A stretch of 40,732 nt of DNA from a virus. This document shows positions 5,773 through 36,652 of this stretch, piece after piece. The translations under genes were made by a program, and so were the position numbers. The notes under the pieces are model-generated. The model searched no databases. It was not told the DNA's origin and saw only the letters and a list, made by a program, of their open reading frames with translations. Location: positions 1 through 40,732 of the IMG/VR virus record IMGVR_UViG_3300036795_000156. One strand, written 5' to 3'. Positions within the stretch are counted from its first letter, which is position 1; every line of letters begins with the position of its first letter.

Positions 5773-5991
5773 ATGATGGTGCGCCAGTGCAAGCTCACAT
5801 CCGGGACTGCGAACCTCACGGCATGGCTGCCGGACCGCAAGGATCTGCGCGAAGGCGTCGAGGTCACGCTGTCCAACCACCCGGAGCCGACAAAGCGCTG
5901 GAAGGTGCGCTCGATCGGCAGCGCGGTGCGAGAGATGGCCGGGATCAACCGGGCGTGGCGTGTCGGAGGAATTGACGCTCCGCTGGTGTAA
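5773..5991 (+). CDS. Hypothetical protein, 72 aa
   Basis: Begins with two ATG codons and has no ribosome site; the -10 element six bases upstream suggests a leaderless mRNA. The sequence (LTSGTANLTAWLPDRKDL...GVEVTLSNHPEPTKRWKVRSIG) alternates polar and hydrophobic residues like a small beta-barrel. Basic at its C-terminus. Converges on the leftward operon at a shared terminator (6099-6132). Family not recognised. Confidence 0.65.
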   Translation: MMVRQCKLTSGTANLTAWLPDRKDLREGVEVTLSNHPEPTKRWKVRSIGSAVREMAGINRAWRVGGIDAPLV

Positions 5992-6098
5992 CGTCTGCCT
6001 CGGATCGCGCGGCCACAAAGCGCCCCGACGCGCCCCGGTTCTATCTCTTCGGAGGTACGGGCTCCGCGCTACCGAATATCGGGTGACCCGTGGTACGG

Positions 6099-6334: not shown

Positions 6335-6507
6335 AGGTCGACCAGCACAGTCTCGATCGTGTGAAGCTGGCGAGGGATCTTCTGGATCGCCTTGCGCTTG
6401 GATCTTGCCTCGGCCTGGTATCGGAAGCCGTCGATGCGGGCGTACGCCAGCCACCAGCCGTTCTGCCGCAAGGAGGTGGTGATCTCGACCTGTCCGACTG
6501 TCCTCAT
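6331..6507 (-). CDS. Basic 58-aa protein
   Basis: ATG 6507 overlaps the stop of its neighbour by ATGA. It begins with two strands (VEITTSLRQNGWWLAYARI) and continues into a basic helix (EARSKRKAIQKIPRQL). The gene at 26422 looks similar in pattern (strand pair, then Arg/Lys-rich helix), so the two may be distant paralogues that bind nucleic acid; this is inference. Confidence 0.65.
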   Translation of the reverse strand: MRTVGQVEITTSLRQNGWWLAYARIDGFRYQAEARSKRKAIQKIPRQLHTIETVLVDL

Positions 6508-10501: not shown

Positions 10502-10701
10502 ACATGCGACCGGAGAACCGCTGTGGCGGTTCGGGCCAGAACGGTCACTGGGCCGACACTGCTTACGCCGGGACGTTCACTCCGTTGCTGAAGTCGTGGT
10601 GCTCGGTGTGCCGTCGCCACGGCATCCGTGTCCGGGTCACTGGGGAGTTGTTCGCCCACTCGAAGGTGGGGCCGCGACACTCCGGGAAAATAGATGGTTG
10701 A
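10498..10701 (+). CDS. Small CxxC protein, 67 aa
   Basis: ATGA-coupled to the gene before. Features RCGGSGQNGHWAD, then WCSVCRRHGIRVRV. One CxxC plus other Cys/His could form a zinc knuckle. Ends at the promoter of the peptidyl-tRNA hydrolase gene. Confidence 0.6.
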   Translation: MNMRPENRCGGSGQNGHWADTAYAGTFTPLLKSWCSVCRRHGIRVRVTGELFAHSKVGPRHSGKIDG

Positions 10702-10725
10702 CAACCCGGCGTGATGCTCTATCGT
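10698..10725 (+). promoter_or_regulatory. Consensus promoter of the PTH2 gene
   Basis: TTGACA (10698-10703), 16-base spacer, TATCGT (10720-10725). Seven bases later comes ATG (10733) followed at once by TAG and then GTG. By analogy with 24751 and 32264, transcription would start on or next to that ATG. Confidence 0.7.
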
Positions 10726-10738
10726 TCCTGTCATGTAG

Positions 10739-11101
10739 GTGACAGAGAGCGTGAGTGAGCCGCTCCTTCTCGACCGCCTGTACGTCGCTGTTCGTGCCGA
10801 TCTCTCGCCGGGCCTTCAGGCAGCCCAGGCAGTGCACGCAGCCTTCGAGTTCTCGCACCAGCACCCGGACGTGGTGCATCGGTGGATGAGCGACTCCAAC
10901 TACCTCGTCATCGTCTCGGTGCCGGACGAGGGTGCGCTGTGCGACCTGATGACGGCCGCCGGCGCCAAGGGCATTGGTCACACCGCGGTGCGCGAGCCCG
11001 ACATCGGTGACGAGCTGACTGCGTGCGTGCTCGCCCCGGGCGATGCCGCGCGGCGGTTCTGCAGTAACCTCCCGCTGGCCCTGAGGGAGGCCAAGACGTA
11101 A
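10739..11101 (+). CDS. Peptidyl-tRNA hydrolase, PTH2 family
   Basis: 120 aa from GTG 10739. RLYVAVRADLSPGLQAAQAV resembles the PTH2 glycine/lysine-rich start, AFEFSHQHP the following helix, NYLVIVSVPDEGALCDLM the central strand and helix, and the C-terminus carries GHTAVREPDIGDELTACVLAP. PTH2 enzymes free tRNAs from stalled peptidyl-tRNA, which fits a phage with many tRNAs. Directly upstream and in frame lies ATG-TAG (10733-10738), seven bases after the -10 box, with no ribosome site for the GTG. Translation may need UAG readthrough, or reinitiation after a start-stop. GTG 10751 is another possible start. Confidence 0.8.
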   Translation: MTESVSEPLLLDRLYVAVRADLSPGLQAAQAVHAAFEFSHQHPDVVHRWMSDSNYLVIVSVPDEGALCDLMTAAGAKGIGHTAVREPDIGDELTACVLAPGDAARRFCSNLPLALREAKT

Positions 11102-11182
11102 CAGACCTGCCGGGCGAGCATGACCGCAATGCGCCTGCCTTCGGGTGGGAGAACGTGGTTCAATTCCACGGCCCGGCACTTG

Positions 11183-11257
11183 GCCCCTAGGAGTCGATTG
11201 GTAGACGGCTGGACTCTAAATTCAGCAGTGTGGGTTCGAATCCCACTGGGGGCGCCA
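11183..11257 (+). tRNA. tRNA with CUA anticodon (amber suppressor)
   Basis: Acceptor GCCCCTA/TGGGGGC, discriminator G, encoded CCA. Anticodon arm CTGGA-CTCTAAA-TTCAG gives anticodon CTA, which reads UAG. T-arm GTGGG-TTCGAAT-CCCAC. The loop is one base from glutamine CTG, and G73 also fits glutamine, so Gln charging is a guess. Position 8 is G instead of T. Confidence 0.85.
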
Positions 11258-13753: not shown

Positions 13754-16440
13754 TGTCCGCGATTACGATGCCGGACGAGGAGGAGTGCTACCTGCTCGCC
13801 TTGCTGGAAGCCTCCGACGGTTTGGACCTCGCTGAGTTCTGCTGGTACGACGCGGAGTCCGAGGACGGCTGCTACCGGGCATGGGACTTCCAGTGGCGCT
13901 GGTACACCGACCCGGCCTCCTATCAGGCCGACCAGGGCGCTCGAGCGCTGGGCAAGACCGTGGGGATCGTTATGCGGTCCTTTGCGCTGCCGTTCGCCTT
14001 CCCCGGCGCCAAGATGCTGGTCACCGCTCCGGAGCTCAACCACTTGCGGCCACTGGTCGACGAGATTGAGAAGCGACTGCTGGCCAACTGGCTGATGACC
14101 GAAATGCTGCCTTCGGGCAAGGGTCAGGGCATCAACCGCCAGCCGCATTGGCAGGTCCGGTTCCTCAACGACACCCAGATCGTGTCCCGGCTGCCCGGCA
14201 TCAACGGCAAGGGTGTCAAGGCCCAGCACGTCATCTCGATTGAGATGGACGAGGCGCAGGACTACCCGGAGCTCGGTTGGGCCGAACTGGTCTCGACGCT
14301 GAACCGATGGTTGCCCAATGCTTCCTGGCGGGTGCATGGCGTGCCGACCGGGGTGCGTAATCGCTTCTACGACATCACCGAGGGCGACATGTCGGCGATC
14401 GAGGACCGGCAGTGGCACGTTCATCGCCCGATGGCCATGATGCGCCCCAGTTGGAGTCCTGGTGAGCGCGAGGACAACACCAAGATCTTCGGTGGCTCCC
14501 GGTCGACCATCGACTACAAGCGCAACATCTACGGCGAGCATGGCGATGCCACGCATGTGGTGTTCGTGCTCCACAAGCTGATGGCGTGTGTGGACAAGGA
14601 TTCAGGCTCGACCTACAACACCGATGTCTACTACCAGGTCAAGATCGAAGATCAGATGCTGTCGGAGGACAGCCCGATCGCCGCGATGATCGAGCTGCCC
14701 GGCACTCACAAGCATGGCTACGAGCAGTGGGCGACCCCGGATCTCGAGGATGGCAAGAAGGGCCGCCCTCGGCAGGTCGGCGCCAAGGACGGCTACTCGG
14801 CGTACTACGCCGGCGCGGACATCGGCCTGCTGAACCATCCCACCGAGATCCTGGTCTTCGGCCAGCGCACGGGGACTGATGAGCTGGAACTGATCACTCG
14901 GATCCACCTGCGTCGCTGTGACATCTTCCAGCATGGCGAGGTCGCTGACATCCTGTTCGATTTCTACGGCGAGAAGCTCAAGGCGTTTGGCCTGGACGAG
15001 ACCGGCCAGGGCCAGGGCGTGTTCCAGGTGATGAAGAAGAAGCCGTACAAGGACCGGATCTACGGCTACAACTTCTCCGAGAAGGTCATCGTCGGCTTCG
15101 AGGACCGCGAGCTTGTCGGCAAGGAGACGATGGAGGACCTCGCCCAGATGCGCAATGTCGTCGAGCACGCCACCGACGTGCTGCGTAACGACTACGTCGA
15201 CACCGGGCGGCTGCGGCTGCCTATGGACGGCGAGCTGCTCAAGGAGTGGCAGGGCCAGACCTGGTATTTCATCAAGGACGACAAGGACCCCTACGGCAAG
15301 GGTCGCGCCAAGGATTTCTGCGTGGACGAGTCCACTGAGATAATGACCGACGGGGGTTGGAAGCGTCATGATGAGTTGTCTGGGCTCGAGCAGGTCTTAG
15401 TGTTGCGCCAGGACGGGCTCTCCTACTGGGAGCCACTCGTTGATGTTCATCGTTTCGCCGCAGAGCCTCGGGAGATGTGGCTGTCGGAGAACCGGGGGCA
15501 TTCGTCGCTGACTACCCGAGATCATCGCTGGTTGGTTGAGCAGTACCGGGCCTATCACCGAGATTTCGTCTGGCAGTGGCGTACCGGCGATGAGCTCGTT
15601 CGGTTCTCCAGTGTTCCGCTGGCGGCGCCGTGCGCATCGCTTCCCGACGTGGCCAAGTATTCGGACGCCCTGGTGGAGCTTGCCGGTTGGTACATGGCCG
15701 AGGGGAATCTCAACGGCAACCAGGTGTCACTCTCGCAGTCGCCGGCCGTCAATCCCGAAGGAGTTGCTCGTATTCGTCGATGCCTGGTCGCGTTGTTTGG
15801 TGACCCGGCATACGCCGATGTCGGTGGCCAGTGGCATGAGTACCTAAAGTCCAGCGGGGTGATCGAGTTCAAGCTTTGCAAACCGGCCGGTGCCGTCTTG
15901 CTGGAAGTGGTCGCGACCGGCGAGAAGGTCCCCACTGCTGAGTTCATCATGTCGTTGACCAGGGCGCAGTTGTCGCTGTTCTGGAGTGGTTTTTATGACG
16001 GCGACGGAAGTCATTCACTGGCAAGATTTTCGGACGGCTACGAGTGCAAGGTGGAACATTCCGTGTTCCAGAAGTCGTCTGCGCGTATTCGTATGGCTGA
16101 GATGGTCTGTGCCTTGCTGGGGATGCCGACCAACACCACGACGGCCGCGAGTGGCCTGAATCTCTGCGTGCGCAATCAACGGCGCACCCGACCTGCCCAG
16201 TGTCGCAAGCTCGTGATCCACGAAGGAATGGTGTGGTGTCCGCAAACTCCCAGCGGCACCTGGTTGGCGCGACGTAATGGTACCGTCTACTTCACTGGCA
16301 ATTCCCGGGGTAAGTTCCACACGCTGGATGCCGGAAAGATGATGGCAGCGGGCAGGACCCTGCCGTTGCTCGAGGAGATGGCCAAGGCCGCGGTACCTCA
16401 GGCCCCGGTGTTCGACTACTTCGTGGGCCAGGAGTACTAG
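13753..16440 (+). CDS. terL: Terminase large subunit (TerL) with LAGLIDADG intein
   Basis: 895 aa from a GTG start. The ATPase half shows a Walker-A-like QGARALGKT (~61-69) and Walker B VISIEMDEAQD (~160-170). The nuclease half follows, with YYAGADIGLL providing an early catalytic Asp. An intein (Cys523-Asn850) splits the C-terminal nuclease region; the spliced protein is 567 residues, normal for TerL. The enzyme packages DNA into the prohead through the portal. Ends with TAG; the same frame continues open for 83 codons after it. Confidence 0.95.
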   Translation: MSAITMPDEEECYLLALLEASDGLDLAEFCWYDAESEDGCYRAWDFQWRWYTDPASYQADQGARALGKTVGIVMRSFALPFAFPGAKMLVTAPELNHLRPLVDEIEKRLLANWLMTEMLPSGKGQGINRQPHWQVRFLNDTQIVSRLPGINGKGVKAQHVISIEMDEAQDYPELGWAELVSTLNRWLPNASWRVHGVPTGVRNRFYDITEGDMSAIEDRQWHVHRPMAMMRPSWSPGEREDNTKIFGGSRSTIDYKRNIYGEHGDATHVVFVLHKLMACVDKDSGSTYNTDVYYQVKIEDQMLSEDSPIAAMIELPGTHKHGYEQWATPDLEDGKKGRPRQVGAKDGYSAYYAGADIGLLNHPTEILVFGQRTGTDELELITRIHLRRCDIFQHGEVADILFDFYGEKLKAFGLDETGQGQGVFQVMKKKPYKDRIYGYNFSEKVIVGFEDRELVGKETMEDLAQMRNVVEHATDVLRNDYVDTGRLRLPMDGELLKEWQGQTWYFIKDDKDPYGKGRAKDFCVDESTEIMTDGGWKRHDELSGLEQVLVLRQDGLSYWEPLVDVHRFAAEPREMWLSENRGHSSLTTRDHRWLVEQYRAYHRDFVWQWRTGDELVRFSSVPLAAPCASLPDVAKYSDALVELAGWYMAEGNLNGNQVSLSQSPAVNPEGVARIRRCLVALFGDPAYADVGGQWHEYLKSSGVIEFKLCKPAGAVLLEVVATGEKVPTAEFIMSLTRAQLSLFWSGFYDGDGSHSLARFSDGYECKVEHSVFQKSSARIRMAEMVCALLGMPTNTTTAASGLNLCVRNQRRTRPAQCRKLVIHEGMVWCPQTPSGTWLARRNGTVYFTGNSRGKFHTLDAGKMMAAGRTLPLLEEMAKAAVPQAPVFDYFVGQEY
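15319..16302 (+). other. LAGLIDADG intein in TerL
   Basis: 328 residues. Begins CVDESTEIMTDGGWKRHDEL, ends GTVYFTGN before Ser. Two dodecapeptide motifs, LAGWYMAEGNLNG and FWSGFYDGDGSHS, mark a two-motif homing endonuclease. The endonuclease looks intact, so the intein could still be mobile. It sits in a conserved stretch between KDF and SRGKFHTLDAG. Confidence 0.95.
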
Positions 16441-16746
16441 CGCCGGACAGATGCTTTCGGTTCCACGTCTATATACGACATGGACAGTATGAGAGCACCG
16501 AGATGGCTCAGGATTGCACCGGGCGCACGGTCAACCGCGACGGCGGCCCGATGCGAGCGACGCAATCCCGACGATGACCGCGACGATCAGGCCGAGCCAC
16601 AGCACATGGGCGACGAAGCCGAGACCGCCGAAGATGAGCAGGAGCAGGATCGCAAACAGGAGCAGCATGGCGGCACCGTAGCACCCGGGTGACTTTATGC
16701 GTGTCAGATGCCGATGTGAACGGTAACGAACACCAGAATCGAGCAA
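16441..16746. other. Gap between TerL and the next head gene
   Basis: 306 bases. On the plus strand the TerL frame stays open until the TGA at 16690-16692, giving a possible readthrough tail. On the minus strand a small membrane protein is encoded (16531-16668). A TATATA within a partial palindrome lies near 16471. Confidence 0.5.
16531..16668 (-). CDS. Small membrane protein (DUF5670/lmo0937-like)
   Basis: 45 aa, two adjacent hydrophobic segments (MLLLFAILLLLIFGGLGFV and LWLGLIVAVIVGIASLA) ending in GRRRG. The composition and arginine tail resemble the lmo0937/DUF5670 family of tiny membrane proteins. It is antisense to the head operon and has only a weak ribosome site. It could be holin-like, but there is no direct support. 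Confidence 0.5.
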   Translation of the reverse strand: MLLLFAILLLLIFGGLGFVAHVLWLGLIVAVIVGIASLASGRRRG

Positions 16747-36575: not shown

Positions 36576-36652
36576 AGGACGGTAGCTCAGCGGTGAGAGC
36601 GGCGAGGCTTATAACCCGTGCGTCCTGAGTTCAACTCTCAGTCGTCCTACCA
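36576..36652 (+). tRNA. tRNA-Ile (TAT) with bulged anticodon stem
   Basis: Acceptor AGGACGG/TCGTCCT, encoded CCA, T-arm CTGAG-TTCAACT-CTCAG. Anticodon loop CTTATAA; the stem GCG(A)GG/CCCGT pairs only with one A bulged. Confidence 0.8.

Follow-up and report, generated by a model that had tools for sequence, protein, structure and literature searches.

The 40.7 kb viral fragment analysed here (IMG/VR record IMGVR_UViG_3300036795_000156; "the window" denotes this whole stretch of 40,732 nucleotides) carries on its plus strand a divergent gene of the peptidyl-tRNA hydrolase 2 (PTH2) family, related to those of mycobacteriophages Myrna and Bixzunavirus, whose second codon is an amber stop codon (TAG), and 81 bases past the end of this gene lies a tRNA gene with the anticodon CUA. 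The start codon (ATG, 10733–10735) and the amber (10736–10738) are in the PTH2 frame, and the adjoining GTG (10739–10741), a possible re-initiation start, is the start annotated in mycobacteriophages; from there the frame is open until a TAA at 11099–11101. Read through the amber, the gene spans 10733–11101 and has 122 codons, the amber included. Upstream lies a promoter composed of TTGACA (10698–10703), 16 spacer bases and TATCGT (10720–10725), which ends 7 bases 5' of the ATG and is the sole sigma-70-like site between 10500 and 11500, where shuffled sequence yields 0.2. The tRNA gene (11183–11257, plus strand; anticodon at 11216–11218), detected by ARAGORN and scoring 53 bits against the Rfam tRNA model, combines a tRNA fold with the CUA anticodon in the loop CTCTAAA, has G73 and an encoded CCA, and is an amber suppressor by its anticodon. 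An earlier note on this DNA had described the promoter, the ATG TAG GTG seven bases after the −10 box and a UAG-reading tRNA just past the gene, and all of these were found where it had placed them. The locus therefore shows the pattern of a tRNA-gated gene, with a special codon near the start and a dedicated tRNA to decode it.

The assignment to PTH2, also proposed in that note, is borne out both by sequence families and by fold. The protein matches PF01981 with 32.1 bits (Pfam cut-off 23) and belongs to phrog_1866, and its AlphaFold2 model (predicted local distance difference test, pLDDT, 93) matches the solved PTH2 structures 3erj (Z 16.1), 1q7s (Z 15.6) and 1xty (Z 14.8). In the window and in the homologues that carry an amber, PG[LY]Q stands in place of the canonical MxKGK (MRKGK) loop and EPD...T in place of the canonical D-S/A-G-x-T-E-F segment, while Myrna and the phages of loci L081 and L040 have PTH2 paralogues that keep the canonical motifs. 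Several phages with an amber-carrying PTH2, Myrna included, also encode this second, canonical PTH2. The amber-carrying gene is therefore not simply "the" hydrolase of these phages; from its sequence, peptidyl-tRNA cleavage is a putative function and its activity is uncertain. Where located (L135, which is Myrna 16397–16738, L134 and L137–L139), the second PTH2 lies far from the amber-carrying copy, and the readable examples (L135, L137 and L138) are amber-free and open from an ATG. Among cellular proteins, eukaryotic PTRHD1 is presumably the nearest to the EPD-type PTH2; papers on PTRHD1 were of no help here.

To look for the same arrangement in related phages, we scanned IMG/VR with the post-amber core of the protein as query, which makes the search blind to the amber itself. 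This gave 69 loci and then a further 50 (on partly shared contigs), to which two contigs from metagenome-assembled genomes (MAGs) were added; grouping at 70% identity yielded 51 clusters with GC contents from 0.23 to 0.69 (L-numbers designate loci). A start codon followed after 0–7 codons by an in-frame TAG recurs in 34 of the 51 clusters, both MAG contigs among the carriers; one further cluster (L055) has only an internal amber, and 16 have none. The amber is codon 2, 3, 4, 5, 8 or 9, so that the in-frame stop falls 1–8 codons past the start. On the tree of these proteins, the early amber needs 6 changes, at least 4 of them forced by well-supported branches. Within the mycobacteriophages the arrangement is nearly invariant: 60 bases across promoter, ATG, TAG and GTG are mismatch-free in 147 of 190 records and 95–99% identical in the other 43. 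When C1-like sequences were sought that have a codon other than TAG at this place, the pattern matched two unrelated sequences and one true TAG.

The codons around the amber vary between lineages. In the window and in the Myrna-type and C1-type phages (L002, L005, L018, L020 and L024) the amber is codon 2 and is followed by GTG or ATG, depending on the phage, as in GTG TAG GTG ACA of Myrna and ATG TAG GTG ACA of five C1 phages. The nearest relative of the window, L021/L003, reads ATG ACC TAG ACA CAC GAC ACC TCG ACA CTC GAT CGC TTC, with no start codon from the amber to the conserved LDRFY. An AT-rich phage (L004) has ATG AAG TAG ATA, and huge phages have ATG ACA TAG (LR756504), ATG AAA AAT TAG (LR756502), ATG AAC AAT TAG (LR745206), ATG AAG TAG (LR756500) and ATG TCG TAG (LR756501). 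In L068/L131, where the amber is codon 9, PTH2 has a long fused C-terminal part that brings it to about 300 residues overall, and a tRNA(CUA) gene lies just upstream.

Two properties of the early stop are constant. It is TAG in all 34 clusters, with no case of TAA or TGA; in the AT-rich members TAA is by far the commonest terminator, so that an element needing only a start and some stop, of whatever kind, would be expected to show TAA. It is also always followed by a purine (34/34), even though the following codon itself is variable, whereas a purine follows ordinary TAG terminators in only 25 of 55 homology-selected genes of phages I3 and Myrna (p = 7×10−9) and in 29 of 57 genes at the same loci (p = 7×10−8). 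In classical E. coli work, suppression of UAG is favoured by a purine on its 3' side. Of the 34 loci, 32 have a start codon within five codons 5' of the TAG in frame, against 0 and 2 for the two other frames; the selection itself demanded an in-frame start, but it did not require the other frames to be empty.

In 30 of the 34 early-amber clusters there is no in-frame ATG, GTG or TTG between the amber and the conserved core that comes early enough to serve as a start, and in these the PTH2 protein is therefore obtainable only if UAG is read. This bears directly on a second possibility raised in the earlier note, that ribosomes start at the AUG, stop at the UAG and re-initiate on the adjoining GUG; on such a leaderless mRNA the tRNA would be incidental or modulating. 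A GTG or ATG does adjoin the amber in the window and in the Myrna-type and C1-type phages, and public annotation places the start there, so re-initiation is possible in the window's own subgroup. Yet a start codon directly follows the amber in just 3 of 34 clusters and is missing from the sister lineage L021/L003, and outside that subgroup the proposal fails. Moreover, re-initiation could use any stop, while TAG alone occurs, always before a purine. Two homologues have ambers well inside the gene, LR756501 (L016) with two ambers at codons 3 and 37 and L055 with a single mid-gene amber, and re-initiation would be unable to yield these proteins whole. We thus regard start, stop and re-initiation as an unlikely explanation of the arrangement.

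Another explanation is that translation begins in the ordinary way at GTG 10739 or GTG 10751 of a longer transcript, the ATG-TAG being there by chance. The Shine-Dalgarno-like AGGTGA at 10737–10742, 8 bases before the in-frame GTG 10751, would fit such a ribosome-binding site. The position of the promoter argues for a different start: its −10 box ends 7 bases 5' of ATG 10733, and in the other high-GC homologues (L002, L005, L018–L021, L024, L061 and L073) a −10 box likewise lies about 6–7 bases 5' of the upstream start. Transcription in the window is accordingly predicted to begin at or adjoining the A of ATG 10733, giving a leaderless mRNA. The earlier note had compared this spacing with that at two other starts of the window, 24751 and 32264, but these have weak −10 boxes and carry little weight; the orthologues are the better evidence. 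A Shine-Dalgarno start at GTG 10751 was rejected, since C1 phages have no start codon at that position, and most homologues have none anywhere past the TAG. An ordinary downstream start is on these grounds very improbable.

The amber and the suppressor tRNA tend to occur together. A tRNA(CUA) gene lies near PTH2 in 27 of the 35 amber clusters (the 34 with an early amber plus L055) as opposed to 1 of the 16 others, judged on cluster representatives (Fisher p = 2×10−6); when every cluster member is counted, 3 amber-free clusters have a nearby tRNA(CUA), and a first count gave p = 2×10−4. The 27 include L122, whose tRNA(CUA), 0.7 kb downstream, was seen at a relaxed ARAGORN threshold. The bodies of these tRNAs are mutually dissimilar, and the discriminator base among the homologues is A in 23, G in 13, T in 11 and C in 2. 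The inserted residue is therefore probably not under selection, and no single amino acid is implied. Among the C1 mycobacteriophages, L005 and L008 or L027 have PTH2 genes that are 98–99% identical and tRNA(CUA) genes that are only 61–62% identical. The tRNA arrays of such near-identical phages (L005, L006, L007 and L008) have unrelated scaffolds with the same anticodon in the CCA, CUC, UGC, GUG and CUA slots, so that scaffold swapping is common among C1 tRNA slots and the anticodon is what stays. A search by similarity for the ancestor of the suppressor tRNAs gave no clear answer.

Some further tRNA genes deserve mention in their own right. L173, L174 and L175 (LR756504, LR756502 and LR745206) have, far from PTH2, tRNA-like genes whose odd, enlarged anticodon loop contains TTCTAAC and which are candidate amber suppressors of huge phages. 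In L011 (L067 is the same phage) an amber-free PTH2 is followed, after about 35 bases, by a tRNA (UUA) that reads ochre (6420–6496 of LR745208), and its sister L055 is the one with the mid-gene amber. The window itself, inside a tRNA array at 32–38 kb, has at 36576–36652 an ARAGORN tRNA with a four-base anticodon (tata), that is, an eight-base anticodon loop.

An amber inside a gene would be trivial if the whole genome were recoded, with TAG being a sense codon as in genetic code 15 and PTH2 merely one recoded gene among many. Such recoding is frequent among phages that carry a tRNA(CUA) (PMC13037316). In these phages, treating TAG as sense gains no more coding coverage than treating TAA or TGA as sense, in contrast to a Lak phage control, where coverage rises from 0.50 to 0.88. 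TAG is also the terminator of 68 of 418 open reading frames (ORFs) across the PTH2 loci and, where genes were selected by homology, of 17 of 89 in I3 and 38 of 91 in Myrna. Genome-wide recoding was therefore rejected by the coverage test with its TAA and TGA controls, and we consider its probability negligible. We also compared I3, Myrna, the L003 contig and the window genome to genome, an approach that replaced greedy ORF calling, which is too noisy in high-GC DNA; only early ambers could be judged in this way, as internal ones were swamped by antisense frames, and no gene other than PTH2 had an early amber in two of these genomes. TAG is thus an ordinary stop in these phages, and suppression must be partial, timed or tolerated. 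The 55 TAG terminators of I3 and Myrna are not followed by an excess of backup stops (3 of 55 have an immediate one), which suggests that suppression is weak or timed.

Taken together, these results make it very likely, as far as genome sequences can tell, that a divergent phage PTH2 is gated by a phage tRNA(CUA) that decodes an obligatory, start-proximal amber, and this PTH2 could probably be made only when a UAG-reading tRNA is present. The earlier note had put forward just this, that the suppressor decodes the amber and that production depends on it, and the proposal is strongly supported by the homologues that have no other usable start, by the exclusive use of TAG, by its purine context and by the co-occurring tRNA(CUA). 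For the window we consider amber decoding to be the main route as well, but with less certainty than for the family, while re-initiation in its subgroup may provide a basal level.

Several observations speak against such gating or limit its reach. The GTG of the window adjoins the TAG, so that re-initiation could yield its protein. In eight amber clusters no tRNA(CUA) lies close to PTH2, some of their contigs being short; a search of the whole record placed the tRNA(CUA) of L081 on the same contig, 46 kb from PTH2, and gave no tRNA(CUA) for either L025/L026 (221 and 473 kb) or L066 (86 kb), and three huge phages have only odd-looped tRNA(CUA) candidates elsewhere in the genome. Conversely, L031, L058 and L059/L060 combine an amber-free PTH2 with a tRNA(CUA) 0.3–1.4 kb downstream; in these the gate may have been lost, or the tRNA may have its targets elsewhere. 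Finally, the clusters share ancestry, and the p-values given above overstate their independence.

We infer that the gate would operate as follows. The promoter would give a leaderless transcript, on which ribosomes initiate at the upstream start codon. The host would normally have no tRNA(CUA), and until the phage supplies one, translation would start and then end at the UAG with a peptide of one to a few residues. Once the phage tRNA has been transcribed, matured and charged, it would compete with release factor 1 at the UAG, a fraction of ribosomes would pass, and the hydrolase-like protein would appear, its output tracking how much charged suppressor tRNA there is relative to release factor 1. 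The purpose of such a device is a guess: it may couple the making of a tRNA-handling protein to the appearance of the phage tRNAs, or serve as feedback on suppression or termination.

The feedback idea can be taken further. Tentatively, the start-proximal amber may make the PTH2-like protein a reporter of the balance between charged suppressor tRNA and release factor, with the protein in turn acting on peptidyl- or suppressor-tRNA and so closing a feedback loop on termination or suppression. Somewhat more doubtful is a version in which the amber is a minigene or termination-rate sensor, with output rising when termination at UAG is slow or peptidyl-tRNA is poorly handled and the product relieving that state, in the manner of release factor 2 (RF2) autoregulation; this would elaborate on gating by the tRNA, not exclude it. 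The earlier note had similarly suggested that an AUG-stop minigene could sense hydrolase supply, taking peptidyl-tRNA as the substrate of this enzyme, which for so divergent a PTH2 is only putative. The gated gene is always of the PTH2 fold and the amber keeps very near the start, as a sensor would have it, although the loci were gathered by PTH2 similarity in the first place. The replaced active-site loop, which leaves the activity of the protein in doubt, weighs against a sensor, as does the mid-gene amber of L055, which would make no minigene; in most relatives the amber is at codons 3–5 and still compatible with one.

Parallels exist among known systems, each with a difference. The bldA tRNA of Streptomyces, the sole tRNA for the rare UUA codon, gates a few genes in which this codon is often near the start. 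Here, too, one tRNA would gate through a special codon near the start; bldA is a cellular tRNA reading a sense codon, whereas here the codon is a stop, the tRNA comes from the phage and competes with a release factor. The RF2 gene (prfB) is autoregulated through an in-frame UGA and +1 frameshifting, by which RF2 senses its own level. It shares with the present gene an early in-frame stop and a product that acts, or in the present case may act, on the peptidyl-tRNA ester bond or on termination, but the device here is a suppressor tRNA, not a frameshift with self-sensing, and the feedback is hypothetical. The lambda bar minigenes consist of an AUG and a near-immediate stop, and they give rise to peptidyl-tRNA without any long product; the likeness lies in this closeness of AUG and stop, and the difference in that a conserved gene here continues in frame.

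Closer to the present case, phage tRNA(CUA) is known to read UAG as sense in hosts with the standard code, for which control of late expression has been proposed (PMC10879173). Lak, crAss-like and other code-15 phages resemble the phages studied here in that a phage tRNA(CUA) makes UAG a sense codon, but they have many genes with many TAGs, whereas here a single gene has one start-proximal amber and TAG is otherwise an ordinary stop. The jumbo phage XacN1 carries two CUA suppressor tRNAs without recoding; its authors read past 18 amber stops, and no target came to light (PMC5852040). It resembles our phages in having amber-suppressor tRNAs without recoding, but its ORF364, which has a PTH2-like domain, shows no early amber in the stretch examined and is a contrast, not a member of the family. 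An early amber is of a kind that searches for read-through at the ends of genes would miss.

That PTH2 sits within the tRNA arrays of cluster C phages has been described (PMC5966550), and suppressor-tRNA recoding and tRNA-gated genes are likewise known. We found no report of an amber-gated PTH2, or of its amber codon, in the open-access literature (subscription journals and preprints being outside the search), and the amber-gated PTH2 switch therefore appears to be new. Many non-recoded phages carry amber-suppressor tRNAs without a known job (PMC5852040). The present results point to a specific, conserved target for such orphan tRNAs across dozens of phage lineages, and would provide a gene-level reason to keep a tRNA that reads a stop codon. 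If true, a suppressor tRNA would here act as the switch of a single gene, which is rare in nature. Gating also predicts that about 190 mycobacteriophage records have the PTH2 start annotated two codons (the start and the amber) too late.

Two amber-free or distant homologues have unusual starts of their own. In the distant, GC-rich L087 (5900–5915) we read ATG CAG TCA TGA with no in-frame ATG, GTG or TTG thereafter, the sole TGA case, for which alignment and start are uncertain. In L075 (IMGVR 3300037010_001382, 5960–6010), whose PTH2 is amber-free, the only nearby ATG is one frame off, reading ATG AAG CGG ATC TAA C GAA, and a tRNA-like sequence ends about 25–30 bases 5' of it; this PTH2 would possibly need a +1 shift at TAA-C, as in RF2, unless a sequencing error accounts for the frame.
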